Under the pieces are notes generated by a model, which did not search any database, had not been told where the DNA came from, and was given only the letters and a program-made list of their open reading frames with translations. DNA of 64,000 bases from Ruegeria marisrubri (lineage in GTDB: Bacteria > Pseudomonadota > Alphaproteobacteria > Rhodobacterales > Rhodobacteraceae): positions 186,001 through 250,000 of the forward strand of contig NZ_LQBQ01000023.1 of NCBI RefSeq assembly GCF_001507595.1, in the 5' to 3' direction. This document shows, one piece after another, positions 12,918 through 38,345 of this stretch. The position numbers and the translations under genes were made by a program. The number at the start of each line of letters is the position of its first letter. The stretch's first letter is position 1.

Positions 12918-13918
12918 CGAACCGGACGGTATTGGCCGAGGCCCTGATCGCCCGGACTCCGTGGGCGAACGCGACCCGCGCGCCTTTGGCCGGAGATGCC
13001 TCCAATCGCCGGTATGAACGCCTGACCGATCCCGAGACCGGCCGCACCGCCGTCCTGATGGATGCGCCACCCGAAAAGGGTGAAGACGTCCGACCATTCG
13101 TCAGGATCGCAAACCACCTGCGCTCAATTGGCCTGAGCGCACCCGAGATCTATGCCGAAGATGCCGAACACGGCTTCCTTTTGCTCGAGGATCTGGGCGA
13201 CGACCTGTTTGCCCGCCTCCTGGAGAAGCACCCCGAGATGGAACGGACGCTGTACGAGGCGGCGACGGATGTTCTGGTCACGCTTTTCGAGGCTCCGACG
13301 ATTCCTCTCGACAGCTACGGGCCGGCGCTGATGACGGAACTGGCCGCGCTGGCCTTTACCAAATACGCAAGCGGCATCACCGGAGAGCCTGACGATGGCA
13401 GGCGAGAGCGGTTTGAGCGCCGGTTCGAGGACATCCTGCACCGCGAGGTTCAGGGACCCAAGGTTCTGATCCAGCGCGACTATCACGCGGAAAACCTGAT
13501 CTGGCTGCCGGATCGCGAGGGCGTGAAGCGCGTGGGGCTGCTGGATTTCCAGTGCGCCATGCTGGGCCACCCGGCCTATGATCTGGTGTCGCTGTTGCAG
13601 GACGTCCGCCGCACGGTGCCGGCCGGGATCGAGATGACGATGGTCAACCGCTACATCAAGGCGACCGGCATCGACGATCACGGGTTCCGCACCGCCTATG
13701 CCGTGCTGGGCGCCCAGCGCAACCTGCGGATTCTGGGCGTGTTCGCCCGTCTGGCCACTGAATACGGCAAGCCACGCTACGTGGACATGATCCCGGCCAC
13801 ATGGGCGCATCTGATGCGCGACCTCGACCATCCCGCACTGGCGTCAGTGGCGGACATGCTGCGCGAGGCCCTGCCGCCCCCGACACCGGAAAACCTGGAC
13901 AGGCTGAGGGTGGCATGA
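12914..13918 (+). CDS. amgK: N-acetylmuramate/N-acetylglucosamine kinase AmgK
   Basis: 334-residue APH-like sugar kinase that phosphorylates the anomeric position of MurNAc, the first step of the cell-wall recycling shunt that bypasses de novo UDP-MurNAc synthesis (fosfomycin target). Kinase hallmarks: APLAGDASNRRYERL in the N-lobe, LLLEDLGDDLFARLL hinge, catalytic RDYHAENLIWL, and metal-binding LLDFQCAMLGHPAYDL. Start and stop both overlap neighbours as ATGA (tsaE before, murU after), supporting this ATG. The murU neighbour makes AmgK more likely than an antibiotic phosphotransferase. Confidence 0.92.
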   Translation: MTNRTVLAEALIARTPWANATRAPLAGDASNRRYERLTDPETGRTAVLMDAPPEKGEDVRPFVRIANHLRSIGLSAPEIYAEDAEHGFLLLEDLGDDLFARLLEKHPEMERTLYEAATDVLVTLFEAPTIPLDSYGPALMTELAALAFTKYASGITGEPDDGRRERFERRFEDILHREVQGPKVLIQRDYHAENLIWLPDREGVKRVGLLDFQCAMLGHPAYDLVSLLQDVRRTVPAGIEMTMVNRYIKATGIDDHGFRTAYAVLGAQRNLRILGVFARLATEYGKPRYVDMIPATWAHLMRDLDHPALASVADMLREALPPPTPENLDRLRVA

Positions 13919-14601
13919 CGAGAAGCCCCGACGCCGTGATGCTCTTTGCCGCGGGTTTCGGCACCCGCATGAAAGAGTTGACCAGGGACCGGCCCAAACC
14001 GCTGATCGAGGTCGCCGGCCGCCCGCTGATCGACCACGCACTCGATCTTGCCCAAGGCGCGCGCGTGTCGCGGATCGTAGCCAACCTGCACTATCTGCCG
14101 GATCAGCTCGAGGCGCATCTGGCGCCGAAAGGCGTTCTGCTGTCACGCGAAGAGCCCGAGATTCTCGAAACGGGGGGCGGGTTGCGCGCGGCCATGCCGC
14201 TTTTGCAGTCCGACCCGGTGTTCACACTGAACACGGACGCGATCTGGGCCGGCCCCAATCCGTTGAGGATGCTGCGCCAAGCCTGGGATCCCGAGAGGAT
14301 GGATGCCCTGTTGATGTGCGTACCGGTTGCGCAGGCGGTGGGCCATTCCGGGGCAGGTGACTTCGTTGCCGACGCCGAGGGGCGGATACGGCGTGGGCCC
14401 GGTCTGATCTATGGCGGGGCGCAGATCATCCGCACCGGGGAACTGGCGGAATTCGAGGAACGGGCATTCTCGCTCAACCTTCTGTGGGACAGGATGCTTC
14501 AGCGAAACCGGCTGTTCGCTCTCACCTATCCCGGCCGCTGGTGCGATGTCGGCCATCCCGGCGGCATCTCGCTGGCCGAGGAGATGCTGGCCGATGTTTG
14601 A
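13915..14601 (+). CDS. murU: N-acetylmuramate-1-phosphate uridylyltransferase MurU
   Basis: 228-residue nucleotidyltransferase converting MurNAc-1-phosphate and UTP to UDP-MurNAc, the step after AmgK in the recycling pathway. The signature LFAAGFGTRMKELTRDRPKP is at the N-terminus, NTDAIW is the metal-binding aspartate region, and CDVGHPGG lies near the C-terminus. ATG 13915 overlaps the amgK stop; the end overlaps the addB start by 8 bases. Confidence 0.93.
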   Translation: MTRSPDAVMLFAAGFGTRMKELTRDRPKPLIEVAGRPLIDHALDLAQGARVSRIVANLHYLPDQLEAHLAPKGVLLSREEPEILETGGGLRAAMPLLQSDPVFTLNTDAIWAGPNPLRMLRQAWDPERMDALLMCVPVAQAVGHSGAGDFVADAEGRIRRGPGLIYGGAQIIRTGELAEFEERAFSLNLLWDRMLQRNRLFALTYPGRWCDVGHPGGISLAEEMLADV

Positions 14602-17521: not shown

Positions 17522-20500
17522 CCCCGCGCGACGAAGCGACGGAGCGCCAGGTTCAGGCCGCGCGCCCGAATGCCTCGACCTGGCTGGCCGCCAATGCCGG
17601 CTCGGGCAAGACGCGCGTTCTGACCGACCGCGTTGCGCGGCTGCTGCTGAACGACGTGCAGCCGCAGCACATCCTGTGCCTGACCTACACCAAGGCCGCC
17701 GCCAGCGAGATGCAGAACCGGCTGTTCAAGCGGCTGGGGCAATGGGCGATGCTGGAGGATGCCGCGCTGCAGGCGCAACTGACCGATCTCGGCGTCGATG
17801 GCAGCATCGATCCCGCACGGCTTGCCCATGCGCGCACGCTGTTTGCGCGGGCGATCGAGACGCCGGGCGGGCTGAAGATCCAGACGATCCACTCGTTCTG
17901 CGCCTCGCTGCTGCGCAGATTCCCGCTCGAGGCCGGGGTCAGCCCGCAATTCTCCGAGATGGAGGACCGCGCCGCCGCGCTGCTGCGCGAAGAGATCGTC
18001 GAGGACATGGCCGAGAGTGCGCACGGGCATCTGGTCGAAGCGGTCGCGCGTTTCGTCACCGATACCGGATTCGACGGATTGACCAAGGCGATCGTGCAGA
18101 ACCGCGACGGGTTCGCGCAGCCGCTGGATTGGGCGGCGCTGCTGCGACTGTTCGATCTGCCCGAAGGGTTCGATGAACAGGCCTTGCTGGACCGCGTCTA
18201 TCTGGGCGGCGAAGTGGAACTGATCCGCTCGATCTTGCCGGTGCTGATCGAAAGCGGCGGCAACAATGCCAAGGCGGCCGACAAGCTTGCCGCGTTCACC
18301 GAGCCGACGCTTGCCAACCTGGCCGTGCTCGAAAGCGTTCTGCTGACCGGGGCGGGGGCCAAGGCGCCGTTCTCGGCCAAGGTCGGCTCTTTCCCGACGA
18401 AAGTGGTGCAGGCCGTTCTGGCAGACAGGATGCCCCAGATTGACGCCCTGATGCGACGGGTCGAGGCGGCGCGCGAGCAACGCCTGGCACTGGTGGCGGC
18501 GCAGAAATCGCTGGCGCTGCACCGGTTTGCCGCCGTTTTCCTGCCGGAATACGAACGCCGCAAGCAGCTGCGCGGCTGGCTTGATTTCGATGATCTGATC
18601 TTCAAGGCGCGGCAGCTGTTGAGCGACCCGGCGGTGGCGGAATGGGTGCTCTATCGCCTCGATGGCGGCATCGACCACATCCTGGTGGACGAGGCGCAGG
18701 ATACCAGCCCCGAACAATGGGACGTGATCGAGAAACTGGCGCGGGAGTTCACCTCGGGCGAAGGCGCGCGGTCGGACGTGGAGCGGACGATCTTCGTCGT
18801 CGGCGACAAGAAGCAGTCGATCTATTCCTTCCAGGGCGCCGACCCCGAGGCCTTTGACCGGATGCAGCGGGAATTCGGACAAAGACTGCGCGATTCAGGC
18901 TCTAACCTTGAGAATCTGACGCTGGAATTCTCTTTCCGCTCGTCGGATGCGATCCTGCGGCTGGTCGATCTGGTGTTCGAAAACCGCACCGATGCTGGGT
19001 TTCACAAGGATGCGCTGCACCGCGCCTTCAAAAGCGATCTGCCGGGGCGCGTGGACTTGTGGCCGGTGGTCGAGAAGGTCGAGGAGGAGGAAGAGGGCGA
19101 CTGGACCGACCCCGTCGACCGGCCTGGGGCACGGCATCACAACGTGGTGCTGGCCGAGCAGGTGGCGCAATCGATCAAGCAGATGATCGCGCGTGGCGAG
19201 ACCATTCCGGTGGATGGCGACAAGCCCGGCCAGCTCAGGCGCCGCAAGGTTCGGCCCGGAGATTTCCTGATCCTCGTGCAGCGCCGCTCGGACCTGTTTG
19301 CCGAGATCATCCGCGCCTGCAAGGCCGCCGGGCTACCCATCGCCGGGGCCGACCGGCTCAAGGTCGGCGCGGAACTGGCGGTCAAGGATCTGGCCGCGCT
19401 GCTGAGCTTTCTCGCCACGCCCGAGGACAGCCTGTCGCTGGCGACGGTGCTGAAATCGCCCCTGTTCGGCTGGACCGAACAGCAACTCTTCGATCTGGCG
19501 CATCGGCGCGAGGAGAAGTTTCTCTGGACGGCGTTGCGCAAGCGGGCGGACGTATTTCCCGAAACGCTGGCCGTTCTGGACGACTTGCGCGATCACACTG
19601 ATTTCCTGCGCCCCTATGACCTGATCGAGCGGGTTCTGACCCGCCATGACGGGCGGCGCAAGCTGCTGGGGCGGCTGGGGGCCGAGGCCGAGGACGGCAT
19701 CAACGCGCTGCTGTCGCAGGCGCTGGCCTATGAGCGCACCGACATCCCCAGCCTGACCGGATTTCTCGTCTGGATGCAGACGGATGACCTGGAGATCAAG
19801 CGCCAGATGACCGGGGTCGGGGACATGATACGGGTGATGACCGTGCATGGTTCCAAGGGGCTCGAGGCGCCGATCGTGATCCTGCCCGATACCGGCGCGC
19901 GGCGGGCACCATCGGATGACGAGGTGATGCTGGCCGACGGCACCCCTTTGTGGCGCATGTCCCGTGACCTGTCGCCCGCCATCATCGCCCGGGCGCGGGC
20001 CGAGGCTCAGACCCGCCAGCTGAACGAACGGATGCGGCTGCTGTACGTCGCGCTGACACGGGCCGAGAAATGGCTGATCGTGGCCGCGGCCGGCGATATC
20101 GGCAAGGATGGTTCCAGCTGGTATCAGATGGTCGAGGACGCGATGGGCCGCGCAGGGGCCACGCTTGTTCCCGGCACAGGCATTCGCCGGCTGGAGCATG
20201 GCGACTGGCACGCCCCCCCGCCGGCCGATGTCGCCAAAGCCACCCACATCCCGGCGCCATTGCCGGAGGCGTTCTGGAAACCGGCCCCGGAACCCGTTTC
20301 CGCGCCAGAGGTCCTGAGCCCCTCTGATCTGGGTGGCGCAAAGGCCCTTCCAGGCGATCAGGGGCTGGACGAGGAGGCCGCCAAATTGCGGGGCACGCGG
20401 ATTCACCTGCTGCTGGAGCACCTGCCCGGACTCGAGCCCCGGGACTGGCCGGAAAGCTGCGTGCATCTGCTGCCCGACGTGACCACCTCAGAGCGGGACG

Positions 20501-20874
20501 GCTTGCTGGCAGAGGCCGCCGCCGTTCTGACCGCACCGCATCTGGCGCAGGTCTTTGCCGCGGACGCTCTGGCCGAGGTGCCGGTCACCGCCGATTTGGG
20601 CGCGTTCCGGGTGCATGGAGTCATCGACCGTCTCATCGTGACCGAGACCGATGTTCAGGTCATCGATTTCAAAACGAACGCCACCGTTCCCGACCGGCCC
20701 GAAACCTGCCCCGAGGGCCTGCTGCGGCAGATGGGGGCCTATGCCCGGGCGCTGGCCCAGATCTATCCGGATCGCCAGATCAGGACCGCCATCCTCTGGA
20801 CGCGCACGGCCGACCTCATGTGGCTGCCGCACGATCTTGTGACAGAGGCGCTGGGCCGCAGCCCGATACCTTGA
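17518..20874 (+). CDS. addA: Double-strand break repair helicase AddA
   Basis: 1118-residue UvrD-type helicase with C-terminal nuclease, partner of AddB. Walker [12 protein letters not shown] is near residue 26; Walker [15 protein letters not shown]; motif [18 protein letters not shown]; motif [18 protein letters not shown]; motif [14 protein letters not shown]. The nuclease motif [10 protein letters not shown] and VIDFKTN lie near the C-terminus. A 1118-residue length is usual for alphaproteobacterial AddA. A consensus promoter for trxA overlaps its stop codon. Confidence 0.95.
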
Positions 20875-20899
20875 CCTCGCTCTGGGCCGCACCTAATTT
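20871..20899 (+). promoter_or_regulatory. Predicted sigma-70 promoter of trxA
   Basis: -35 TTGACC at 20871-20876, 17-base spacer, -10 TAATTT at 20894-20899. The -35 overlaps the addA stop codon. It allows trxA to be transcribed independently of the addBA operon. Confidence 0.6.
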
Positions 20900-20933
20900 C
20901 TTGTCTCAAGCACATCTCATTCAGGAGACACAC

Positions 20934-21254
20934 ATGTCCACCGTAGCCGTCACCGACGAAACCTTTGACGCCGAAGTGAAGAACTCGGACATCCCCGTTG
21001 TGGTGGATTTCTGGGCCGAGTGGTGCGGCCCCTGCAAGCAGGTCGGCCCCGCCCTGGAAGAGCTGGCCGCCGAGTATGACGGCAAGGTGAAGATCGCCAA
21101 GGTCGATGTGGACAGCAACCCGAACTCCGCCGCCGCAATGGGTGTGCGAGGCATTCCGGCACTGTTCATCTTCAAGGATGGCCAGGTCGTTTCGAACCGC
21201 GCCGGCGCCGCTCCGAAGGCCGCGCTGCAAAGCTGGATCGAGTCGTCGATCTGA
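20934..21254 (+). CDS. trxA: Thioredoxin
   Basis: 106-residue cytoplasmic thioredoxin with the active site WCGPC at Cys31/Cys34, VVVDFWAEW before it and the cis-proline region RGIPALFIF. Reduces protein disulfides and supplies electrons to ribonucleotide reductase and MsrA-type enzymes. ATG 20934 follows an AGGAGA ribosome site. It has its own promoter at the addA stop and a strong intrinsic terminator, so it is a single-gene unit. Confidence 0.97.
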
Positions 21255-21277
21255 ATCCGGCTACTGACGATTTTTCC

Positions 21278-21305
21278 GAAGCGCCCGCAGGGGCGCTTCT
21301 TTTTT
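21278..21305 (+). terminator. Intrinsic terminator of trxA
   Basis: Perfect 9 bp stem GAAGCGCCC-GCAG-GGGCGCTTC followed by six T. Lies 23 bases after the trxA stop. Confidence 0.9.
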
Positions 21306-21466
21306 GTCCGTTTCGTACGCGGTTTTCAGGGGTCTTCTTCCGTTTTGTACAAACCGGTTTGGCCGTTGCCCGTGGGACGCCGCCCGCGTTGCCGGTCTCG
21401 TCCCGGTTCGTCCGGATCGCGGGACAACATGGCCAAGTAGACACCAGGACCAGCGCCGGCAAACAA

Positions 21467-21499
21467 GAAAAAAGCCGCTCGTCGTTTCGAGCGGCTTTT
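21467..21499 (-). terminator. Intrinsic terminator of the DUF1127 gene
   Basis: 11 bp stem AAAGCCGCTCG with loop TCGTTT and arm CGAGCGGCTTT. On the minus strand it is followed by TTTTTTC, 25 bases after the DUF1127 stop. On the plus strand a TTTT follows too, so it may work both ways. The stretch 21306-21466 between this and the trxA terminator holds no gene that I can see. Confidence 0.85.
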
Positions 21500-21524
21500 C
21501 ATTCGGTCGATCGATTCATTGGCA

Positions 21525-21719
21525 TCAGATCTTGGCGATGTCGCTGCGGGTCAGGCCGATATCGTCCAGCTGGGCATCGGTCAGCCGGGACAGTTCCTTG
21601 CGGGTCACACGGGCCTCGTTCCATTCGACGATGGCGTTCTTGGCCGAGATGATTGCGTCCACTACATGGAGAACGGTGACTGCTCCGAGCGGCGCATTGA
21701 TGTTTGCGGTGTTTGCCAT
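21525..21719 (-). CDS. DUF1127 (YjiS-like) small protein
   Basis: 64-residue protein ending in the arginine/leucine-rich DUF1127 motif: [25 protein letters not shown]. Members in Rhodobacter and Agrobacterium are stress-linked and have been implicated in RNA turnover or phosphate and carbon metabolism, some by binding RNA. ATG 21719 is chosen over an upstream in-frame start because GGAAGGAAA lies directly upstream. Single-gene unit with a strong terminator; the CCUCCUCCC small-RNA motifs found downstream of some Rhodobacter homologues were not seen here. Confidence 0.88.
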
Positions 21720-21859
21720 TGCGCATTTCCTTCCAACAGAAACAGCCGACCCCTCGTCGGTTGCAGGTCTCATCTAGGAACAAGGGCCGCGATTCACAAT
21801 TGTTGGTTCGACAGCCCCGGAATGCACGCAATGCATACCGTTGGGTCAGCCTTAAGCCG

Positions 21860-21888
21860 TTGCGCTTGCCCGCGACCCGGCCCATATA
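21860..21888 (+). promoter_or_regulatory. Possible promoter of hslVU
   Basis: TTGCGC at 21860-21865, 17-base spacer, CATATA at 21883-21888, about 25 bases before the hslV start. The GCCCATATA end resembles a heat-shock -10, but the only CTTG upstream is too close for a standard sigma-32 site, so the sigma factor is uncertain. Confidence 0.4.
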
Positions 21889-21914
21889 CTGACTTCAACA
21901 GTTCGGAGGCACGC

Positions 21915-22472
21915 ATGGCGGACAGCGATTTTCCCGGTTGGCACGGCACCACGATCATTGGCGTGAAAAAGGATGGCGAGGTCGTCGTGGCCGGGGACGG
22001 GCAGGTCAGCCTGGGCCAGACCGTCATCAAGGGCTCTGCGCGCAAGGTGCGGCGGCTGTCCCCCGGCGGGTTCGAGATCGTCGCGGGCTTTGCCGGATCG
22101 ACGGCCGATGCCTTTACGCTGCTGGAACGGCTGGAAGCCAAGCTCGAGGCCACGCCGGGGCAGCTGGCGCGCGCCTCGGTCGAGCTGGCCAAGGACTGGC
22201 GCACCGACAAATATCTGCAAAAGCTCGAGGCGATGCTGATCGTCACCGACGGGGCGGACATGTTCGTGATCACCGGGGCGGGCGACGTGCTGGAGCCCGA
22301 ACATGACGTGGCCGCGATCGGATCGGGCGGCAATTTCGCGCTGGCGGCGGCGCGGGCGATGATGGATGGCGACAAGAACGCCGAACAGGTGGCCCGCGAC
22401 GCCATGGCGATCGCCGCCGATATCTGCGTCTATACCAACGGCAACCTGACCGTGGAGCGGATCGCGAAATAG
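21915..22472 (+). CDS. hslV: ATP-dependent protease subunit HslV
   Basis: 185-residue proteasome-like peptidase of the HslUV (ClpQY) heat-shock protease. The catalytic N-terminal threonine follows a short propeptide: FPGWHG then [10 protein letters not shown], giving Thr12 after removal. [20 protein letters not shown] and [15 protein letters not shown] are typical. The next gene is hslU, 69 bp downstream in the same direction. Confidence 0.97.
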
Positions 22473-22541
22473 CGGGGTTCCGCCTTGTGTTTCCGCAGCC
22501 CATGCTTAGGTTCCCGGCGAAACAACGGGATTTGAAAGCAC

Positions 22542-23849
22542 ATGACCGACCTGACCCCGCGCGAGATCGTCAGCGAACTGGACCGTTTCATCATCGGCCA
22601 GAAAGAAGCCAAACGGGCCGTGGCCGTGGCGCTGCGCAGCCGCTGGCGGCGCAAGCAGTTGCCCGATGATCTGCGCGAAGAGGTGTTTCCCAAGAACATC
22701 CTGATGATCGGCCCCACCGGGGTCGGCAAGACCGAGATCAGCCGCCGTCTGGCCAAGCTGGCGCGTGCGCCCTTCATCAAGGTCGAGGCGACCAAGTTCA
22801 CCGAGGTCGGCTATGTCGGCCGCGATGTCGAACAGATCATCCGCGATCTGGCCGATGCCGCCATCGTCCAGACCCGCGAATTCATGCGCGAAGAGGTCAA
22901 GGCCAAGGCGCACCAGGCCGCCGAGGACCGGGTGATCGAGGCGATTGCCGGATCGGACGCCCGCGAGGCGACCCGCGAGATGTTCCGCAAGAAGCTGAAA
23001 TCGGGCGAGTTGGACGACACGGTGATCGAGCTCGAGATCGCCGACCATTCCAACCCGATGCCGATGTTCGACATTCCCGGCCAGCCCGGCAGCCAGATGG
23101 GCATGATGAATCTGGGCGACATTTTCGGCAAGGCCTTCGGCGGGCGCACGGTCAAGCGCCGGATGACCGTGGCCGAAAGCTATGACATCCTGATCGGGGA
23201 AGAGGCCGACAAGCTGCTGGATGACGAAACCGTCACCCGGACCGCGCTGGACGCGGTCGAGCAGAACGGAATCGTGTTCCTCGACGAGATCGACAAGGTC
23301 TGCGCCCGGGCCGATGCGCGGGGCGCCGATGTCAGCCGCGAGGGCGTGCAGCGCGACCTGCTGCCGCTGATCGAGGGCACCACCGTCTCCACCAAGCATG
23401 GCCCGGTCAAGACCGACCACATCCTGTTCATCGCGTCGGGTGCGTTCCACATCGCCAAGCCGTCGGACCTGCTGCCCGAGCTTCAGGGCCGACTGCCGAT
23501 CCGGGTCGAGCTGCGCGCGCTGACCGAAGAGGATTTCGTGCGCATCCTGACCGAGACCGACAACGCCCTGACCCGCCAGTACACGGCTTTGATGGGCACC
23601 GAGGACGTGAGTGTCTCGTTCACCGATGACGGCATCGCCGCGCTGGCCCGGATCGCGGCCGAGGTGAACCGCAGCGTCGAGAATATCGGGGCGCGGCGGC
23701 TCTACACGGTCATGGAGCGCGTGTTCGAGGAGCTGTCCTTTGCCGCGCCGGACAAGGCCGGGGCGCAGATCACCGTGGATGCCGATTTCGTGCAGGAGAA
23801 CCTCGGTGAGCTGACCAAGTCGATGGATCTGAGCCGCTACGTTCTCTAG
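22542..23849 (+). CDS. hslU: ATP-dependent protease ATPase subunit HslU
   Basis: 435-residue AAA+ unfoldase that feeds substrates to Hsl[18 protein letters not shown] at the N-terminus, Walker [24 protein letters not shown] pore region, Walker [10 protein letters not shown], sensor region [19 protein letters not shown], and the C-terminal tail DLSRYVL that docks into HslV. Partner of the upstream hslV. Confidence 0.97.
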
Positions 23850-23929
23850 ACGGGCCGGAAATATCCGCTAGCGTGGGGCGGGTGCGACCGGTGGTCCGCG
23901 CGCCCAACTCACCGTGGATATCCAGGCTG

Positions 23930-25150
23930 ATGAAACCGTCGGGGTTACGCCAATACCTGTCCGACAACGCCGCGTGGCTGGCGGCTGGCGTGCTGTTGAC
24001 GTTTCTGTCCAGCTTTGGCCAGACCTTCTTCATCTCGATCTTCGCCGGGGAAATCCGGGCCGAGTACGGGCTGAGCCACGGTGAATGGGGCGGCATCTAC
24101 TCGCTCGGCACCACCGTTTCGGCGATCGTGATGCTCTGGGCAGGACCTCTGACGGACAGGTTCCGCGTGCGCGTGCTGGGGCCCGTGGTTCTGGTCGGGC
24201 TGGCGCTGGCGGCACTGGCGATGGCGTTCAATAGGTGGCTTGTCCTGCTGCCAGCGGTCATTTTCCTGCTGCGTCTGTTCGGTCAGGGCATGAGCATGCA
24301 TATCGCCGTTGTCGCGATGGCTCGCTGGTTCACGGCCACGCGGGGCAGGGCGTTGTCGATCGCAACCTCGGGCTATGCCCTCGGCGAGGCGCTGCTGCCC
24401 ATTCTTTTCGTCTCCGCCATGGACCTGGTGGACTGGCGCCTGCTCTGGGTTGCGGCGGCCGGCATTGCGCTGCTGGGACTGCCGATCCTGGCGCGGCTGC
24501 TGCGTCAGGAGCGCACGCCGCAGAGCCTGTCCGACACCCATTCCGCCACGGGGATGGAGGATCGCCACTGGACCCGGCGCGAGGCGCTGGGGCATCCGCT
24601 TTTCTGGTTCGTGGTGCCCGCGCTGCTGGGCCCCGGAGCCTTCATCACCGCGTTCTTCTTCCACCAGGTCCATCTGGCCGAGATCAAGGGCTGGCTGCAT
24701 GTCGAACTGGTGGCGCTGTTTCCCGCCTTTACGACCGCCGGGGTGCTGGCGATGTTCGCCTCGGGCTGGGCCCTGGACAGATGGGGCACGGCGCGGATGA
24801 TGCCCTTCTATCAACTGCCGATGGCTGCCGGATTCCTGGTCCTGACATTTGCCGGAACATTGGCCGGCGGCCTGGTCGCGATGCTCTTTCTGGCCCTGTC
24901 GACCGGTGCCAACAGCACCCTTCCCAGCGCCTTCTGGGCCGAGTTCTACGGAACCCGCCACATCGGCGCGATCAAGGCGGCGGCGGCGGCGGTGATGGTG
25001 CTGGGATCGGCCATCGGCCCCGGTGTGACCGGGGTTCTGATCGACCTGGGCATCGGACTGGAGACGCAGTTCGCCGGAATCGCGGCCTATTTCGTGGCCA
25101 CCTGCGCCTTGCTGTGGATCGGCGTGTCCCGGGCCGCCAGAACGCTTTAG
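23930..25150 (+). CDS. Major facilitator superfamily transporter
   Basis: 406-residue inner-membrane protein with about 12 hydrophobic helices and an MFS-like loop (AGPLTDRFRVRVLGP) between helices 2 and 3. The substrate cannot be read from sequence; the organisation resembles oxalate/formate or nitrate-type MFS permeases without a defining motif. ATG 23930 is preferred to an in-frame GTG at 23873, which would add an unlikely basic extension. It is convergent with the Smr gene, with stops overlapping by 4 bases. In many relatives this position holds no transporter, so it may be lineage-specific. Confidence 0.82.
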   Translation: MKPSGLRQYLSDNAAWLAAGVLLTFLSSFGQTFFISIFAGEIRAEYGLSHGEWGGIYSLGTTVSAIVMLWAGPLTDRFRVRVLGPVVLVGLALAALAMAFNRWLVLLPAVIFLLRLFGQGMSMHIAVVAMARWFTATRGRALSIATSGYALGEALLPILFVSAMDLVDWRLLWVAAAGIALLGLPILARLLRQERTPQSLSDTHSATGMEDRHWTRREALGHPLFWFVVPALLGPGAFITAFFFHQVHLAEIKGWLHVELVALFPAFTTAGVLAMFASGWALDRWGTARMMPFYQLPMAAGFLVLTFAGTLAGGLVAMLFLALSTGANSTLPSAFWAEFYGTRHIGAIKAAAAAVMVLGSAIGPGVTGVLIDLGIGLETQFAGIAAYFVATCALLWIGVSRAARTL

Positions 25151-27811: not shown

Positions 27812-27837
27812 CCGCGCCTGACGGGTGTCAGGCGCGG
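27812..27837. terminator. Hairpin between convergent secB and dnaQ
   Basis: 11 bp stem CCGCGCCTGAC-GGGT-GTCAGGCGCGG, overlapping the last bases of dnaQ. No T-run on either side, so it may slow polymerase or protect 3' ends rather than act as a strict intrinsic terminator. Confidence 0.6.
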
Positions 27838-28553
27838 TTCCACAGGGCTTTTTCCCCCAGTTTCTCGACAAAGGCGTCATGCGCCGCGCGTTCCTCGTCG
27901 GTGATCCGCGAGGGCAGAGGGTTTGGCCGGGCGGTGGGACGCCAGACCTGACCCGCATCGGCGGTATCGGTCGTGGCAACCGCCGACAGGCCGAAATCCG
28001 GCTGGCGCCCGCCGATCAGTTCCAGATAGACCTCGGCCAGGATCTCGGAGTCGAGAAGCGCCCCGTGCAGCACCCGGTTCGAGTTGTCGATGTTGAACCG
28101 GCGGCACAGCGCATCCAGCGAGGCCGGCGAGCCGGGAAACCTCCTGCGTGCAATGGCAAGCGTGTCCACCGCCTGCGCCATCGGGATCAGCGGCAGGCCG
28201 ATCCAGCCGAGTTCCGCATTGAGGAACTTCATGTCGAAGGCGGCGTTGTGGATGATCAGCTTTGCATCCCCCACGAAGTCGCGGAACGCCTGACCGATCT
28301 GCGCGAAGACCGGCTTGTCCTTCAGCGTCACCTGACCCGGTTCGGGGGTCTGCGGCGGCTCCAGCAGGTCGGGGCCGATGCCGTGCACGCCAAAGGCCTC
28401 GGCCGGCATCGAGCGTTCGGGATTGATGTATTGGTGGTAGGTTTCACCGGTGGCCACGTGGTTCCACAGCTCGACCGCGCCGATCTCGACGATGCGGTCG
28501 CCGTTCTCGGGTTCGAAACCGGTCGTTTCCGTATCAAGAACAATCTCACGCAT
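27828..28553 (-). CDS. dnaQ: DNA polymerase III epsilon subunit (3'-5' exonuclease)
   Basis: 241-residue proofreading subunit. DEDDh exonuclease motifs: VLDTETTGFEP (Exo I), IIHNAAFDMKFLN (Exo II), and HGALLDSEILAEVYLEL (Exo III with His and Asp). The C-terminal 50 residues are the polymerase-binding tail. Last gene of maf-aroE-coaE-dnaQ; its ATG overlaps the coaE end by 8 bases. Confidence 0.96.
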   Translation of the reverse strand: MREIVLDTETTGFEPENGDRIVEIGAVELWNHVATGETYHQYINPERSMPAEAFGVHGIGPDLLEPPQTPEPGQVTLKDKPVFAQIGQAFRDFVGDAKLIIHNAAFDMKFLNAELGWIGLPLIPMAQAVDTLAIARRRFPGSPASLDALCRRFNIDNSNRVLHGALLDSEILAEVYLELIGGRQPDFGLSAVATTDTADAGQVWRPTARPNPLPSRITDEERAAHDAFVEKLGEKALWNRA

Positions 28554-29139
28554 CTGCCAGTCCTGCTCTTATCTGCCTGACGATATCCTGCACCTGCTGG
28601 CGGGCATGGTCCAGAGTGTCGGTTTCGATGACGAAATCAGCCCGGGCGCATTTTCCCGCGTTCGGCATCTGCTTGGCGCGGATCTGCTCGAACTGCTCTT
28701 CGGTCATGGTGCCGCGGGCCATGACCCGTTCCTTCTGCACCTCCGGCGGGACGGTGACGCAGGCCACCGCATCCATTGCCGCGTCGCCCCCGGTCTCGAA
28801 CAGCAGGGGAATGTCGAAGACGATGATGTCGGCCTTGGCATTGGCCCGGAACGCCGCCCGGTCCTGAGCCACCAGCGGATGCACGATCGCCTCGATGGTC
28901 TTCAGCGCCGCGGGGTCCTGGGAAATGATGCGCTTCAGGGCCGCGCGGCTGACGGCGCCATCTTCGATCGCTTCGGGGAAGGCGGCGCGCATGGGCTCGA
29001 CCGCGGCACCGCCGGGCGCATAAAGCCGGTGCACGGCCGCATCCGCGTCCCAAAGGGCGCAGCCCTCGTCCACGAACATCTGCGCCGTGGTGCTTTTGCC
29101 CATGCCGATCGAGCCCGTCAGGCCAAGCGCGAAACTCAT
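28546..29139 (-). CDS. coaE: Dephospho-CoA kinase
   Basis: 197-residue kinase for the last step of CoA biosynthesis, phosphorylating the 3'-hydroxyl of dephospho-CoA. P-loop GLTGSIGMGKST, the acidic DADAAVHRLY substrate segment, FDIPLLFETG, and the lid arginines near QKERVMAR. Overlaps aroE (ATGA) and dnaQ (8 bases). Confidence 0.95.
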   Translation of the reverse strand: MSFALGLTGSIGMGKSTTAQMFVDEGCALWDADAAVHRLYAPGGAAVEPMRAAFPEAIEDGAVSRAALKRIISQDPAALKTIEAIVHPLVAQDRAAFRANAKADIIVFDIPLLFETGGDAAMDAVACVTVPPEVQKERVMARGTMTEEQFEQIRAKQMPNAGKCARADFVIETDTLDHARQQVQDIVRQIRAGLADA

Positions 29140-29969
29140 GCCAGCGCCGCCGCCCGGGTTGCGTCATCGACGTCGGGCCGTTTGCCGAACCAGCTTTCGA
29201 AACCGGGAACCGCCTGGTGCAGCAACATGCCCAGACCATCGACGGCAATGCACCCCGCCTCTTCCGCCTCGCGCAGAAGCCGGGTTTGCAACGGCGTATA
29301 GACCAGGTCCGTGACAACGGCGCCGGGTTGCAGCCCATCCAGGGGCACGCGCAGTTCCGGCTGACCGACCATGCCCAGCGAGGTGGTGTTGACGACAAGT
29401 TCCGCATCCTCGACCACGTTTCCGGCCTGCACCCAATCGACAACGGTGATGGTATCTCCGAATTCCTGCTGCAACTGCTCGGCGCGGGCGCGGGTTCGGT
29501 TGGTCAGCAGGATTTCAGGCACGCCGGCCTCGATCAACGCCGCGATCACGGCCCGAGCCGCGCCTCCGGCCCCGAAAATCACCGCGGGCCCGTCTTTGGG
29601 GTTCCAGTCCGGCGCGCCGCTGCGGAGGTTTTCCATGAAGCCGTACCCATCGGTGTTGTCGGCCCGGATCGTTCCGTCGCTTGCGAAAGTCAGCGTATTC
29701 GCCGCGCCGATCCGGCTTGCCTGCTCGGTGACGGTATCGGCGATCCGCAGGGCGGCCTCTTTGTGGGGAACCGTGACGTTTGCGCCGACGAACCCGGCCT
29801 TGGGCAAGGTGCGCAGAACCTGTTCGAGATCCTCGGGCGCCACGTCCATCGGGATGTAATGGCCCGCCAGACCGTATGTCTTCAGCCAATGCCCATGCAC
29901 CTTGGGGGACCTGGAATGCGCAATCGGATGCCCGATCACGCCGGCCAAAGGGATCCGGTTCTCTGTCAT
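29136..29969 (-). CDS. aroE: Shikimate dehydrogenase (NADP+)
   Basis: 277-residue enzyme reducing 3-dehydroshikimate in the aromatic amino-acid pathway. GVIGHPIAHSRSPKVHG binds shikimate, NVTVPHKEAAL has the catalytic lysine, DNTDGYGFM the aspartate, GAGGAARAV the NADP loop, and NRTRARAEQL the NADP-specificity basic motif. Overlaps both neighbours as ATGA. Confidence 0.96.
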   Translation of the reverse strand: MTENRIPLAGVIGHPIAHSRSPKVHGHWLKTYGLAGHYIPMDVAPEDLEQVLRTLPKAGFVGANVTVPHKEAALRIADTVTEQASRIGAANTLTFASDGTIRADNTDGYGFMENLRSGAPDWNPKDGPAVIFGAGGAARAVIAALIEAGVPEILLTNRTRARAEQLQQEFGDTITVVDWVQAGNVVEDAELVVNTTSLGMVGQPELRVPLDGLQPGAVVTDLVYTPLQTRLLREAEEAGCIAVDGLGMLLHQAVPGFESWFGKRPDVDDATRAAALA

Positions 29970-30565
29970 TGGTCGATTACCCCCTGCAAGGTCAGGAAAT
30001 GAAGCAGCTCCAGCAGGGGCATACCCAAAACGTTAAAGTAGTCCCCGTCAATGCTGGTGAACAGGCGCACGCCTTCTTCCTCGAGCTTGTAGGCGCCGAC
30101 CGCGTGGCGGATGCTGTCCCAGTTGCGGGCCACGTAGCCTTGCAGATAGGCGTCCGAACTGTCGCGCATCCGCAGGCGCACTTGTCCGACATGCCGCCAA
30201 AGCGGTTCACCGTTTCGATAGATGACCGCGGCGGACAGCAGCATGTGGCGCTTGCCGCGCATTGCCTTGAGCTGCTCCAGGGCCGCCTCGGGGCTTTCCG
30301 GTTTCGACAGCAGGCTGCCTTCGAAATCGAGAACCTGATCGCACCCCAGAACCATCGCACCGGGGGTCTTGTCGCTGATCTTGCGCGCCTTCAGCTCGGC
30401 CAGGGCATCGGCGATGTCGCGCGGTGACGCGTTTTCGGCGATCAGGGCGCGTTTTGCGGTATCCTCGTCCACGCGCGGCACCTCTTTGGTGAACGGCACC
30501 GCCGCGTTTCGCAGCAGCCGGGCGCGGATCTCGGACCCCGAAGCGAGGATCAGAGGGACAGACAT
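29966..30565 (-). CDS. maf: Maf-family nucleotide pyrophosphatase
   Basis: 199-residue Maf/YceF-like nucleoside triphosphate pyrophosphatase, proposed to remove modified or non-canonical nucleotides. LILASGSEIRARLLRNA is the family signature; GCDQVLDFEG contains the catalytic aspartate; SIDGDYFNVLGMPLLEL is the C-terminal block. ATG 30565 begins the conserved region. First gene of the operon running left from the putative origin; a perfect DnaA-box-like 9-mer overlaps its start codon. Confidence 0.93.
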   Translation of the reverse strand: MSVPLILASGSEIRARLLRNAAVPFTKEVPRVDEDTAKRALIAENASPRDIADALAELKARKISDKTPGAMVLGCDQVLDFEGSLLSKPESPEAALEQLKAMRGKRHMLLSAAVIYRNGEPLWRHVGQVRLRMRDSSDAYLQGYVARNWDSIRHAVGAYKLEEEGVRLFTSIDGDYFNVLGMPLLELLHFLTLQGVIDQ

Positions 30566-30573
30566 GTGGAAAA
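30565..30573 (-). other. DnaA-box-like 9-mer (TTTTCCACA)
   Basis: On the minus strand TTTTCCACA matches the E. coli consensus TTWTNCACA at all positions. It overlaps the first base of the maf start codon, at the left edge of the gene-free segment. Confidence 0.5.
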
Positions 30574-30607
30574 CCCCGTGGGCAAGTGAATGAACGGTCC
30601 AGAACGG

Positions 30608-30635
30608 TTTGTATGGTTTTCCGGTTGACACGCAA
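30608..30635 (-). promoter_or_regulatory. Possible promoter of the maf operon
   Basis: Minus strand: TTGCGT (30635-30630), 16-base spacer, TACAAA (30613-30608), about 43 bases before the maf ATG. Moderate match only. Confidence 0.35.
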
Positions 30636-30745
30636 CCCCGGCGTTTTCGGGAAATTGATGCTCGAGTCGCTCTGTATCCGCCCATACGGGACAAGGATAA
30701 CTCGGCCATTCTGGAAAAAGAGGATACTCGAAAACTGTCCACGAG

Positions 30746-30754
30746 TTATCCACG
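30746..30754 (+). other. DnaA-box-like 9-mer (TTATCCACG)
   Basis: Eight of nine bases match TTATCCACA. A second, weaker box CTGTCCACG ends 3 bases upstream in the same orientation. Confidence 0.55.
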
Positions 30755-30970
30755 GAAAAGCGGAGCTATCAACCGTATAAGTTATTGTTTTTCAATACCT
30801 TTGATTGGTTCTTCAACATGCCGGGGAAATCGCCCGGCCGGCTCGTCCACCTGGGGAAAACCTGCCGACAAAAAAGTAATCCACGGATTTTGTCCCCCCT
30901 ACAAAACCATCATCCTTTTTCTTTTCTTTCTTTTTTATTAGGGAGGGCCTGTCCAAACGAGAGATCCCGG

Positions 30971-31420
30971 ATGACCGACCTTCTTTACACGCTGTACCCT
31001 TGGGTGAAGTCGCTCCATGTCATGGCCGTGATCTCGTGGATGGCCGGTCTGTTCTATCTGCCCAGGCTGTATGTCTATCATGTCGAGCAGGCGCAGAAGG
31101 TCGAAGGCGCGCCCAGGATCTTCCTTGAAATGGAAGAGAAGCTTTTGCGGGTGATCATGCGCCCGGCGATGGTCGTATCCTGGGCTTGCGGGCTGATCAT
31201 GGTCTTCACGCCGGGCATCGTGGACTGGCAATGGGCGTGGCCCTGGGCCAAGGGGGCAGCCGTGATCGCGATGACCTGGTTCCATCACTGGCTGATGGCG
31301 CGGCGCAAGGATTTCCTGGAAGGGCGCAACAGGCTGTCAGGCCGCCAGTATCGCATGATGAACGAGGTTCCGACCGTTTTGATGATCGTGATCGTTCTGG
31401 CGGTCATCGTGAAGTTCTGA
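30971..31420 (+). CDS. hemJ: Protoporphyrinogen IX oxidase HemJ
   Basis: 149-residue four-helix membrane protein that oxidises protoporphyrinogen IX in heme biosynthesis. WVKSLHVMAVISWMAGLFYLP carries the conserved histidine, followed by RLYVYH and, later, KGAAVIAMTWFHHWLM; these histidines and nearby arginines and lysines are typical of HemJ. ATG 30971 is chosen because the membrane domain begins there; the upstream reading frame lies in the origin segment. First gene to the right of the candidate oriC. Confidence 0.94.
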   Translation: MTDLLYTLYPWVKSLHVMAVISWMAGLFYLPRLYVYHVEQAQKVEGAPRIFLEMEEKLLRVIMRPAMVVSWACGLIMVFTPGIVDWQWAWPWAKGAAVIAMTWFHHWLMARRKDFLEGRNRLSGRQYRMMNEVPTVLMIVIVLAVIVKF

Positions 31421-31544: not shown

Positions 31545-32816
31545 ATGACAACCGAAACCCTGAACCTGTCCGATCTCAAGGCGAAGAGCCCGCAAGACCT
31601 TCTGGCCATGGCCGAAGAGCTCGAGATCGAAAACGCCTCGACCATGCGCAAGGGCGAGATGATGTTCCAGATTCTGCGCGAACGCGCGGATGAGGGCTGG
31701 ACCGTGGGCGGTGACGGCGTGCTTGAGGTGCTGCAGGACGGCTTCGGGTTCCTGCGCTCTCCCGAGGCGAACTATCTGCCCGGCCCGGATGACATCTACG
31801 TCTCGCCCGAGATGATCCGCCAGTATTCGCTGCGCACCGGCGATACGGTCGAAGGCGAGATCAAGGCCCCCGAAGAGAACGAGCGCTACTTCGCGCTGAC
31901 CAAGGTCACCAAGATCAACTTCGAGGACCCGGAAAAGGCCAAGCACAAGATCCTGTTCGACAACCTGACGCCTCTCTATCCCAACGAGCGGCTGAAGATG
32001 GAGATCGAGGATCCCACCATCAAGGACAAGTCGGCCCGGGTCATCGACCTGGTGGCGCCGATCGGCAAGGGCCAGCGTTCGCTGATCGTGGCGCCGCCGC
32101 GGACCGGTAAGACGGTGATCCTGCAGAACATCGCGCACTCGATCGAAAAGAACCATCCTGAGTGCTACCTGATCGTCCTGCTGATCGACGAACGCCCCGA
32201 AGAGGTGACCGACATGCAGCGCTCGGTGAAGGGCGAGGTGGTGTCCTCGACCTTTGACGAACCGGCGTCGCGCCACGTGGCCGTGTCGGAAATGGTGATC
32301 GAAAAAGCCAAGCGTCTGGTCGAGCATAAACGAGATGTTGTTATCCTTCTCGACTCGATCACAAGACTTGGTAGGGCCTTCAACACCGTGGTGCCGTCCT
32401 CGGGCAAGGTTCTGACCGGCGGTGTGGACGCCAACGCGCTGCAGCGGCCCAAGCGGTTCTTTGGCGCGGCCCGGAACATCGAAGAGGGCGGTTCGCTGAC
32501 CATCATCGCCACCGCGCTGATCGACACCGGCAGCCGGATGGACGAGGTGATCTTCGAAGAGTTCAAGGGCACCGGCAACTCGGAAATCGTTCTGGACCGC
32601 AAGATCGCCGACAAGCGCGTCTTCCCGGCCATCGACATTCTCAAGTCGGGCACCCGGAAAGAGGACCTGCTGGTCAACAAGGCCGATCTGCAGAAGACCT
32701 TCGTGCTGCGCCGGATCCTCAACCCGATGGGCACCACCGACGCGATCGAGTTCCTGCTGTCGAAACTGAAACAGACCAAGACCAACTCCGAGTTCTTCGA
32801 TTCGATGAACACCTGA
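31545..32816 (+). CDS. rho: Transcription termination factor Rho
   Basis: 423-residue hexameric RNA-dependent helicase. The N-terminal domain has [21 protein letters not shown] and the cold-shock-like RNA-binding [16 protein letters not shown]. The ATPase domain has Walker [24 protein letters not shown], Walker [13 protein letters not shown], and the secondary RNA-binding Q/R loops ([11 protein letters not shown]). C-terminal [17 protein letters not shown]. Its own promoter lies just downstream of hemJ. Confidence 0.98.
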
Positions 32817-34138: not shown

Positions 34139-34154
34139 TGTTTCACGTGAAACA
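34139..34154. other. parS centromere site 1
   Basis: TGTTTCACGTGAAACA, a perfect 16 bp palindrome identical to the widespread chromosomal parS consensus bound by ParB. It sits across the mnmG ribosome site and start: the GTG at 34147 is within its CACGTG core. About 3.4 kb from the candidate oriC. Confidence 0.93.
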
Positions 34155-36015: not shown

Positions 36016-36635
36016 CACCGGAACAACTCGCCGGGTTTTCCGATCTCGATGTTTCACGTGAAACATTCGATCGCCTGACGGTTTTCGCCACGCTGCTGGA
36101 GCGGTGGAACCCACGGATCAACCTTGTCTCCCGAAACAGTCTGAAAGATTTATGGACCCGACACATACTTGATTCCGTTCAGGTTTTCCGTTGTGTCGAG
36201 GCAAAGGGTCATTGGGTGGACCTGGGCAGCGGTGGCGGCTTTCCTGGAATGGTTTGCGCAATCATGGCTGCAGAGGAAGCCCCGGACGCCCATTTCACGC
36301 TTGTCGAAAGCGACCAGAGAAAAGCGGCGTTTCTTCGCAGTGCCGCGCGCGAGTGCAGAGCGAAATGCACGGTCCTGAGTCGGCGAATCGAGAAGATCGC
36401 CCCCTTGGAGGCAGACATTCTTTCGGCTCGGGCCCTGGCGGATCTGACGGTTCTTTTGTCCTATTGCGACAGGCATTTGCGGGATACCGGCGTGGCGCTG
36501 TTTCCGAAAGGCGCCACATGGGAAAAAGAGGTCGCCGAAGCGCGCAAACAATGGAATTTCGCCGCCGAGCCGATTACTAGTTTAACGGAGCCCCAGGCGG
36601 TTATCCTGAAAATCAAAGGAGTGTCACGTGGTTGA
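36012..36635 (+). CDS. rsmG: 16S rRNA (guanine(527)-N(7))-methyltransferase RsmG (GidB)
   Basis: 207-residue methyltransferase forming m7G527 of 16S rRNA; loss gives low-level streptomycin resistance. [16 protein letters not shown] and [17 protein letters not shown] (SAM loop) are diagnostic. The peptide DVSRETF at residues 13-19 is encoded by a parS palindrome. ATG 36012 overlaps the mnmG stop (ATGA); the end overlaps the parA start. Confidence 0.96.
36050..36065. other. parS centromere site 2 (inside rsmG)
   Basis: Second exact copy of TGTTTCACGTGAAACA, within codons for DVSRET of rsmG. It shares 19 bases with site 1 (the palindrome plus TTC) and lies 1.9 kb from it and about 560 bp before parA. 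Confidence 0.93.
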
Positions 36636-37431
36636 TCTGTCCCGTCCTTCGGCCCCCCGGATCGTAGCGGTTGCGAACCAGAAGGGCGGCGTGGGAAAGA
36701 CCACGACGGCGATCAACCTTGCGGCGGGGCTGGTCGAGTGTGGTTGCCGGGTGCTGGTCGTGGACCTGGATCCGCAAGGCAACGCGTCCACGGGATTGGG
36801 CGTCGAGGACCGGGACTGGACGACTTATGACCTGGTGATCGACGACGCACTGCTGGAGGCGGTCATTCAAGAGACCGAGATCGACGGGCTTTACATCATT
36901 CCCTCAACGGTGGATCTCAGCTCGGCGGATATCGAGCTGATTTCGAACGAAAAGCGCAGTTTTCTGCTGCACGATGCCTTGCGGCAAACCGGGATGGACG
37001 CGTTTCGGTTCGATTATATCCTGATCGACTGCCCGCCGTCGCTGAACCTGTTGACGGTGAACGCAATGGTTGCGGCCGATTCAGTCCTTATTCCGCTGCA
37101 AAGCGAGTTCTTCGCCTTGGAGGGGTTGTCGCAGCTGATGTTGACGGTTCGCGAGGTCCGGCAGACCGCCAATCCGGACCTGAGAATCGAAGGTGTTGTG
37201 TTGACTATGTTCGACAACCGCAACAACTTGTCCCGTCAGGTCGAGAAAGACGCCCGTGACAATCTGGGAGAGATGGTATTTAAAACCAAGATACCCAGGA
37301 ATGTCCGGGTCAGCGAAGCGCCATCCTACGCGTTACCGGTTCTGCAATACGACTCGGGCTCTTTGGGCGCGATGGCCTACAGGCATCTGGCACGCGAAAT
37401 GTTGCAGAAACACAGGAAAATGGCCGCTTGA
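36628..37431 (+). CDS. parA: Chromosome partitioning ATPase ParA
   Basis: 267-residue deviant-Walker ATPase that moves ParB-parS complexes to opposite poles. NQKGGVGKTTTAINLAAGL contains the signature lysine pair; VVDLDPQGNAS is motif A' and LIDCPPSLNLLTVNAM Walker B. GTG start at 36628 with AAAGGAG upstream, overlapping the rsmG stop by 8 bases. Forms an operon with parB, 20 bp downstream. Confidence 0.97.
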   Translation: MVDLSRPSAPRIVAVANQKGGVGKTTTAINLAAGLVECGCRVLVVDLDPQGNASTGLGVEDRDWTTYDLVIDDALLEAVIQETEIDGLYIIPSTVDLSSADIELISNEKRSFLLHDALRQTGMDAFRFDYILIDCPPSLNLLTVNAMVAADSVLIPLQSEFFALEGLSQLMLTVREVRQTANPDLRIEGVVLTMFDNRNNLSRQVEKDARDNLGEMVFKTKIPRNVRVSEAPSYALPVLQYDSGSLGAMAYRHLAREMLQKHRKMAA

Positions 37432-37451
37432 ACGGCGGATAGGGGGCTGAG

Positions 37452-38345
37452 GTGAGCGTCAAGAAAGGCAAATCGAGGGGATTGGGCCGGGGGCTGTCCG
37501 CGCTGATGGCGGATGTTGCACAGGATACCGCGGCGGCTTCGGTTGAACCCAGACGCCCCGACATGCGGGTTCCGATCGAAAAGGTCAGGGCCAACCCCAA
37601 TCAGCCGCGCCGGACGTTTTCGCAGGATCAGCTTGATGAGCTGGCCGCCTCGATCAAGGAAAAGGGTATCATTCAGCCGCTGATCGTGCGCCCGGTGGCG
37701 GGTGGAGAGTATGAGATCGTTGCCGGCGAGCGCCGTTGGCGCGCGGCGCAGTTGGCGCAATTGCATGAAATCCCGGTTCTCGTGCGGGAATTCGACGATA
37801 CCGAGGTTCTCGAGGTCGCGATCATCGAGAATATTCAGCGGGCCGACCTGAATGCGGTCGAAGAGGCGGCCGGCTACAAGCAGTTGATGGAACGATTCGG
37901 CCATACGCAGGAAAAACTCGCGGAGGCCTTGGGCAAAAGCCGCAGCCATATCGCGAACCTGCTGCGTCTCTTGTCCTTGCCGAAGGACGTTCAGGCGCTT
38001 GTCGTCGAGGGAAAGCTGTCTGCAGGCCACGCACGCGCCCTGATCACGGCGGAAAACCCGTCTGAACTGGCCCGAATCGTCGTTCGGGATGGGTTGTCTG
38101 TTCGCCAGACCGAGGCCTTGGTGAAAAAACAACAGAACCGTGGGGGTGAAGCGGGGCCTGCGCGTTCCAGTTCGCCGTCTTCTGCAAAGGATGCGGATAC
38201 ACGGGCGCTGGAAAAGGATCTGTCGGCCATTCTGGCGATGAAGGTCGTGATCAACCACAAGCCGGGCACCGAGACCGGGCAGGTGGTCTTGACCTACGAG
38301 AACCTCGATCAGCTGGACGATCTCTGCGCCAAGCTCAGCCGTTAG
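37452..38345 (+). CDS. parB: Chromosome partitioning CTPase/DNA-binding protein ParB
   Basis: 297-residue CTP-dependent clamp that loads at parS. RGLGRGLSALMAD near the N-terminus, the CTP-binding GERRWRAAQLAQL and ENIQRADLNAVEEA, a helix-turn-helix (TQEKLAEALGKSRSHIANLLRLLSLP region), and a C-terminal dimerisation domain. GTG start at 37452. Its targets, two parS sites, lie upstream in mnmG and rsmG. The 3' end overlaps the convergent ybaN gene by 11 bases. Confidence 0.97.
   Translation: MSVKKGKSRGLGRGLSALMADVAQDTAAASVEPRRPDMRVPIEKVRANPNQPRRTFSQDQLDELAASIKEKGIIQPLIVRPVAGGEYEIVAGERRWRAAQLAQLHEIPVLVREFDDTEVLEVAIIENIQRADLNAVEEAAGYKQLMERFGHTQEKLAEALGKSRSHIANLLRLLSLPKDVQALVVEGKLSAGHARALITAENPSELARIVVRDGLSVRQTEALVKKQQNRGGEAGPARSSSPSSAKDADTRALEKDLSAILAMKVVINHKPGTETGQVVLTYENLDQLDDLCAKLSR

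Follow-up and report, generated by a model that had tools for sequence, protein, structure and literature searches.

A maf–hemJ intergenic region with a conserved box-plus-block element is the predicted chromosomal origin of Ruegeria marisrubri

The genome of Ruegeria marisrubri is a 4.01-Mb draft in 39 contigs, and the window, i.e., the whole stretch of 64,000 nucleotides analyzed here, corresponds to positions 186001–250000 of contig C23 (365,478 bp). Within it, a gene-free region of 405 bp lies between maf, aroE, coaE, and a dnaQ-like exonuclease gene on the left and hemJ, rho, mnmE, mnmG, rsmG, and parAB on the right (Table 1). The identities of maf, aroE, coaE, hemJ, rho, mnmE, mnmG, rsmG, and parB were confirmed using NCBIfam or Pfam; both the extent of the gap, bounded by the starts of maf and hemJ, and the sides on which the genes lie are as given in a preliminary description of this DNA, which had proposed the region as oriC. 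The G+C content of the gap is 49%, compared with 63% for the window. Two exact copies of TGTTTCACGTGAAACA, which we take to be the parS motif, are located 3.2 and 5.1 kb from the gap, and parS and parAB together span 3 to 8 kb away. The dnaA gene is located on a separate 39-kb contig (C6).

Table 1. Features of the predicted origin region and its surroundings (positions in the window)
Feature	Position	Strand	Remarks
dnaQ-like exonuclease	27828–28553	−	PF00929 exonuclease domain; name dnaQ from the preliminary description
coaE	28546–29139	−	TIGR00152
aroE	29136–29969	−	NCBIfam
maf	29966–30565	−	TIGR00172, PF02545; start at 30565
DnaA-like box TTTTCCACA	30565–30573	−	≤1 mismatch at the aligned place in 37/37 genomes
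Predicted oriC (maf–hemJ intergenic region)	30566–30970		gene-free; 405 bp; 49% G+C
Conserved block GGTTTGTATGGTTTTCCGGTTGACACGCAACCCCG, inverted repeat GGTTG..CAACC	30606–30640		strongly conserved in the genus
GANTC (CcrM-type methylation) site	30664–30668		same 5-nt bin in 36/37 genomes
Weak DnaA-like site TTATCCTTG	30692–30700	−	≤3 mismatches in 95% of 37 genomes
DnaA-like box TTATCCACG	30746–30754	+	≤2 mismatches in 37/37 genomes
Weak DnaA-like site	30843–30851	+	≤3 mismatches in 97% of 37 genomes
DnaA-like box TTTTCCCCA	30852–30860	−	≤2 mismatches in 37/37 genomes
Box-plus-block element	30871–30946	+	sole R1 match at E ≤ 0.01 in own genome (E 1.2e-18; own sequence belonged to the training set)
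DnaA-like box TAATCCACG, adjoining the block	30877–30885	+	≤2 mismatches in 37/37 genomes
G-free strand, 48 nt, presumed unwinding region	30893–30940	+	sole G-free run of ≥34 nt on the contig
Conserved core CCTACAAAACCATCATCCTTTTTC	30898–30921	+	≤3 mismatches in 14/295 family genomes
hemJ	30971–31420	+	TIGR00701; start at 30971
rho	31545–32816	+	TIGR00767
parS TGTTTCACGTGAAACA	34139–34154		exact match
parS TGTTTCACGTGAAACA	36050–36065		exact match
parA-type ATPase and parB	36628–38345	+	parA 36628–37431, ParA-type ATPase by domain; parB 37452–38345

DnaA-like boxes were defined as 9-mers with at most two mismatches to TTATCCACA in either orientation. Five such 9-mers lie in or at the gap, in both orientations, as had been described; the seven to nine matches assigned to them are actually seven or eight, and no box is perfect. 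The box TTTTCCACA at 30565 (−) overlaps the maf start codon by one base, just outside the start of the gap, and the place of the box TTTTCCAGA at 30710 (−) is not conserved among relatives. The four boxes inside the gap compare with an expectation of 1.07, and 23 of 1000 dinucleotide shuffles reached four; judged from this genome alone, the enrichment is modest. A density scan covering two of the 39 contigs, C23 and the dnaA contig, showed that the 407-bp interval from the first box, with five boxes, is the maximum of the 365-kb contig C23 (next best, four), and that no 407-bp interval of the dnaA contig holds more than three. On C23 outside the window, 92 kb from the origin, the segment 309333–309885 has two one-mismatch DnaA boxes 152 bp apart and four near-match boxes within about 400 bp; it is possibly a DnaA-titrating or DnaA-regulated site.

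The gap was present in all 36 same-genus genomes searched, and its length is 402 to 407 bp in the 37 genomes of the genus, own included. Four boxes (30565−, 30746+, 30852−, and 30877+) are fixed in position in 37/37 of these genomes, and sites with at most two mismatches average 5.6 per gap, versus 1.36 expected from mononucleotide shuffles. The box at 30746 (+) reads TTATCCCCA in 26 of the 37. Of 34 other-genus representatives in which maf and hemJ directly flank the gap, 10 of which had been chosen by the motif described below, 31 have a maf–hemJ spacing of 370 to 430 bp. A DNA-level match to the gap was detected in none of 24 genomes of other families. The block at 30606–30640 is absent from the Rhodobacteraceae family consensus and is perhaps the maf promoter. 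One contig labeled as a Verrucomicrobia metagenome-assembled genome (L155, JAAAPI010000392.1) carries the maf–origin–hemJ locus of Rhodobacteraceae and is probably mis-binned.

The right part of the gap contains, directly after the innermost box, a T/C-rich strand without G, and neither strand of the 365-kb contig has another G-free run of at least 34 nt. When the gap was shuffled 2000 times at the mononucleotide level, the longest run obtained was 40 nt, short of the observed 48 nt; in all 37 genomes of the genus, the gap has a maximal G-free run of 38 to 54 nt. In other genera, the 200 nt before hemJ contain a G-free run of at least 35 nt in 21 of 27 cases; the runs are 20 to 45 nt in nine ppsR–hemE gaps of other families and 9 to 21 nt in seven loci with hemE elsewhere, six of them from Rhodobacteraceae. 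Among the runs listed, 160 kb of the relative G032 contain two further G-free runs, of 44 and 37 nt, and the sampled chromosome stretches of relatives contain runs of up to 38 nt. A long G-free run is thus rare, not unique. The preliminary description had also pointed to an AT-rich stretch and a long pyrimidine run. The pyrimidine run is there and occupies 30913–30936, inside the G-free run, and the gap has an easily melted AT-rich region: only four loci elsewhere on the contig are less stable than the 30-nt stretch from 30912.

Strict CtrA sites (TTAA-N7-TTAA) were found in none of the 37 gaps of the genus; a relaxed form is present in 36 of them, versus 96 of 300 shuffles, and lies mostly inside the T-tract. 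The gap of R. marisrubri has one IHF site (WATCA-N5-WTR, at 30767), and this site is not conserved, since some such site is found in 12 of 37 genomes and in 48 of 300 shuffles. The occurrence of a GANTC anywhere in the gap is unremarkable (249 of 300 shuffles have one). The DnaA-trio pattern was taken as a box, a spacer of at most 16 nt, and then at least three (.A.) triplets on the strand read 3′ to 5′ from the box. It was not found on the + strand of the gap itself and occurs somewhere in 27 of 37 genomes of the genus and in 19 of 38 family representatives, but also in 52 of 500 shuffles.

Conservation in the right half of the gap is highest from the box at 30877 to approximately 30946. The core in this segment, CCTACAAAACCATCATCCTTTTTC, occurs once per genome in its 14 of 295 family genomes, and a reversed control was found in 0 of 295. 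A 23-nt degenerate form was found on 43 contigs among 84,980 species (one genome each), in every case beside hemJ; maf lies on the opposite side in 42 of them, and the remaining stretch starts too near to show maf. Thirty genomes of other genera were also picked without regard to the motif, and in the 27 of these with a true hemJ the core was clear in 11 (at most three mismatches over 18 fixed positions), weaker in nine (four or five mismatches), and unrecognizable in seven. The core is not invariant, because its second CAT is CTT in 14 of 37 genomes of the genus and two further genomes are off-pattern.

A sequence-only model of the element, R1, was trained on 29 of 41 family loci, with 12 weak ones excluded. 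With a cutoff of E ≤ 0.01 it matched 77 of 120 Rhodobacteraceae genomes, and with E < 1e-4 it matched 65; when 17 training genomes are removed, the figures are 60 and 48, respectively, of 103. No match was found in 43 of the 120, including G061. The 31 best-scoring family loci were examined, and all lie beside maf, hemJ, or rho. In four of these 31, hemJ is absent and the element is retained between maf and rho. Because it persists where hemJ is missing, the element does not represent a hemJ leader; a hemJ leader RNA was likewise rejected, as the block outlasts the loss of hemJ and has no Rfam match. In L099, L101, L234, and L236, which represent four genera, the origin locus lacks hemJ, and of the genes sought, rho comes next.

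When R1 was applied to 240 genomes drawn from the class, 34 outside Rhodobacteraceae matched at E ≤ 0.01. Seventeen extra-family loci were examined; six adjoin hemE with maf on the far side, and five of these also adjoin ppsR. The four best extra-family matches (E 2.5e-7 to 8.1e-5) lie between ppsR and hemE, and the flanks of the best locus were checked as uroporphyrinogen decarboxylase and kinase-pyrophosphorylase genes. The other two matches that adjoin hemE rank among the chance-like ones. The remaining 11 of the 17 loci lack all four genes maf, ppsR, hemE, and hemJ, with rho at a greater distance in one of them, and resemble chance matches to T-rich DNA. By its coordinates, one further match (G488, E 0.0036), the seventh at hemE, is located immediately upstream of that gene. 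Among nine ppsR–hemE gaps viewed, R1 matched three (G455, G452, and G488) and missed six. The matches at ppsR–hemE in some other families suggest a shared origin core.

The whole order maf–ppsR–hemE–hemJ–rho was found in one genome outside the family (L244). Within the family, partial orders occur in G061 (maf–ppsR–gap–hemJ–rho) and G336 (hemE–hemJ–rho); in the stretches viewed, the block was unrecognizable in both. Given these partial orders, the maf–hemJ locus appears to be what remains of an ancestral maf–ppsR–[ori]–hemE–hemJ–rho order once hemE and ppsR had been lost from it.

Alternatively, the conserved parts of the region could serve the expression of maf and hemJ as a divergent promoter and leader, and the true origin could lie at another place close by. 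The region does sit between divergent genes, and the 30606–30640 block could well be the maf promoter. However, neither a sigma70-like promoter or terminator match nor an Rfam family at E ≤ 1 was found in the region, the box-plus-block element is kept whether hemJ or rho follows as the next known gene, and also where, in other families, hemE does, and the DnaA boxes are fixed in place. We consider this explanation improbable. Promoters, including types beyond the sigma70-like scan, may occur alongside an origin.

GC skew, for which the preliminary description had expected a minimum at this region, gave a divided result. In four relatives the skew turns over, coarsely, at or near the locus, whereas on the own contig the minimum lies 13 to 28 kb to the left. 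There, the raw cumulative minimum is at position 17703 of the window, 12.9 kb left of the gap, and the mean skew is −0.016 on the left and +0.033 on the right; after correction for gene strand, the best break lies 27.7 kb left of the gap and is 20 log units better than the gap. G032 has its raw cumulative minimum over 160 kb (3,292,842) approximately 30 bp beyond the edge of the gap, within the initial hemJ codons, and in G028 the minimum lies 24.6 kb to the left, nearly tied with the gap (−1110 versus −1092). The strand-corrected break is 55 kb to the left in G028, where its advantage over the gap is just 1.6 units. In G032 it is 68 kb to the right, 6.7 units above the gap yet only 2.5 above no break. 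The chromosome skew of the relatives was obtained from 20-kb stretches sampled around their chromosome contigs. In G028 and G032, the locus falls within the best-fit origin (zero offset); the offset is 1 to 2% of the chromosome in G115 and 3 to 7% in G063, which represent two other genera. In G474, from outside the family and with one half sampled, the skew changes sign at 1.11–1.15 Mb, at its element, and also elsewhere there. The GC skew therefore appears to support the neighborhood and not the exact spot, because the minimum and the corrected break on the own contig, like the corrected breaks in G028 and G032, fall off the gap.

These displaced signals are what would be expected of an origin 13 to 28 kb further left, at position 17703 of the window or at the strand-corrected break near 189–190 kb of the contig. 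Position 17703, however, lies inside a + strand open frame of 1131 codons, and no 407-bp interval in 134–216 kb of the contig has four or more boxes. Moreover, the arrangement of genes is retained in G028 as far as 36 kb to the left of the gap, and the raw minimum of G032 lies next to the gap itself. The shift is more likely due to noise or to a local bias of the coding strand, although it persisted after strand correction, and we regard an origin at these positions as very improbable. Several long frames at 12887–25150, left of the origin, are oriented toward it and counter to the expected movement of the replication fork, which may explain the displaced minimum; they presumably include AddA-like helicase and HslV/HslU-like frames. 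Finally, the origin lies beside dnaA in many bacteria, but here dnaA is on contig C6, with at most three boxes per 407 bp and no R1 match, and an origin beside it is extremely improbable.

We conclude that the region at 30566–30970 is very probably the chromosomal oriC, as had been proposed; the boxes fixed in 37/37 genomes, the skew turn-over at or near the locus in four sampled relatives, the nearby parS and parAB, and the sequence kinship with ppsR–hemE gaps of some other alphaproteobacteria all support this reading. With the own skew minimum 13 to 28 kb off, it remains a prediction. Comparison among genomes gives the main support, with the box-plus-block element as its strongest part, and carries the case far beyond the single-genome evidence. 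At the predicted origin, DnaA-ATP would gather on the boxes, spread from the innermost one (30877) across the spacer onto the G-free stretch, melt it, and then load the helicase. The strand without G might stay open after melting, because G–C hairpins cannot form on it. ParB bound to the two parS sites would then separate the new origins.

The orientation of the Ruegeria box presumably matches that in the basal unwinding system. In that system, known from Bacillus subtilis, the published passages considered here give a spacer and trio rule for DnaA-trios (PMC8287927). Similarly, the Ruegeria box is followed by a 13-nt G–C-rich spacer and then CTA, which is 3′-GAT-5′ on the other strand, as in the trio rule set out in those passages (PMC8287927). 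However, the next triplets on the top strand are CAA AAC CAT CAT, and no (.A.) repeat is found on the expected strand. A broader interpretation is tentative and on balance doubtful: the box and G-free block, with CTA, C-A-W-like triplets, and a T/C tract, could form a lineage-wide alphaproteobacterial origin-opening module that is recognizable despite replaced neighboring genes. Its layout would be trio-like but built on another trinucleotide, placed on the opposite strand, and it would perhaps be read differently by DnaA or by a new factor. The odds of such a module are reduced because R1 misses six of the nine ppsR–hemE gaps viewed.

The experimentally located origin of Caulobacter crescentus, Cori, spans 404 bp in the gap between hemE and COG1806/DUF299, a location also given for Rickettsia, and contains five CtrA sites and one IHF site, according to the portions of that report drawn on here (PMC1914354). 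Cori is further described in excerpted text as having weak G- and W-boxes (PMC4468827), and in Hyphomonas neptunium the marker-frequency sequencing peak is, in the part of the account used, close to hemE (PMC6650430). The Ruegeria region was compared with Cori by position and published description. As far as these partial accounts go, the two share a length of approximately 400 bp and imperfect DnaA boxes, like the weak G- and W-boxes of Cori, and their positions derive from apparently the same ancestral gene order; R1 matches in other families hit the hemE–ppsR gap. By contrast, the Ruegeria gap is flanked by maf and hemJ rather than by hemE and ppsR (COG1806), and the genus lacks the strict CtrA sites (0/37) and a conserved IHF site (12/37) of the Cori description, while the GANTC at 30664 is kept in 36/37.

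Chromosomal origins in the family have been placed earlier by skew, Ori-Finder, and par position, as stated in the consulted parts of these studies (PMC6699656, PMC8116508, PMC6315104). In Rhodobacteraceae, Kopejtka (2019) assigned origins with Ori-Finder in 101 strains and not in eight, as its main text reports (PMC6699656). That study concerns the same family and uses the same logic, i.e., DnaA boxes, the GC-disparity minimum, and nearby parAB; nowhere in its main text are maf, hemE, or hemJ mentioned, and the consulted parts describe no conserved element (PMC6699656). In the available text of a 2007 study, the origin sequences of its set were alike only among close relatives (PMC1914354). 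The element, including the string CATCATCCTTT together with oriC, was not found described in the open-access literature searched, outside which subscription papers mostly fall; an element shared by the origins of more than one family may thus be undescribed.

The result is a base-level map of a predicted origin in a major marine family. The box-plus-block element, which is single in its own genome, could be used to locate origins by sequence in closely related draft genomes. The G-free block offers a well-defined site at which the opening of DNA by alphaproteobacterial DnaA can be tested.
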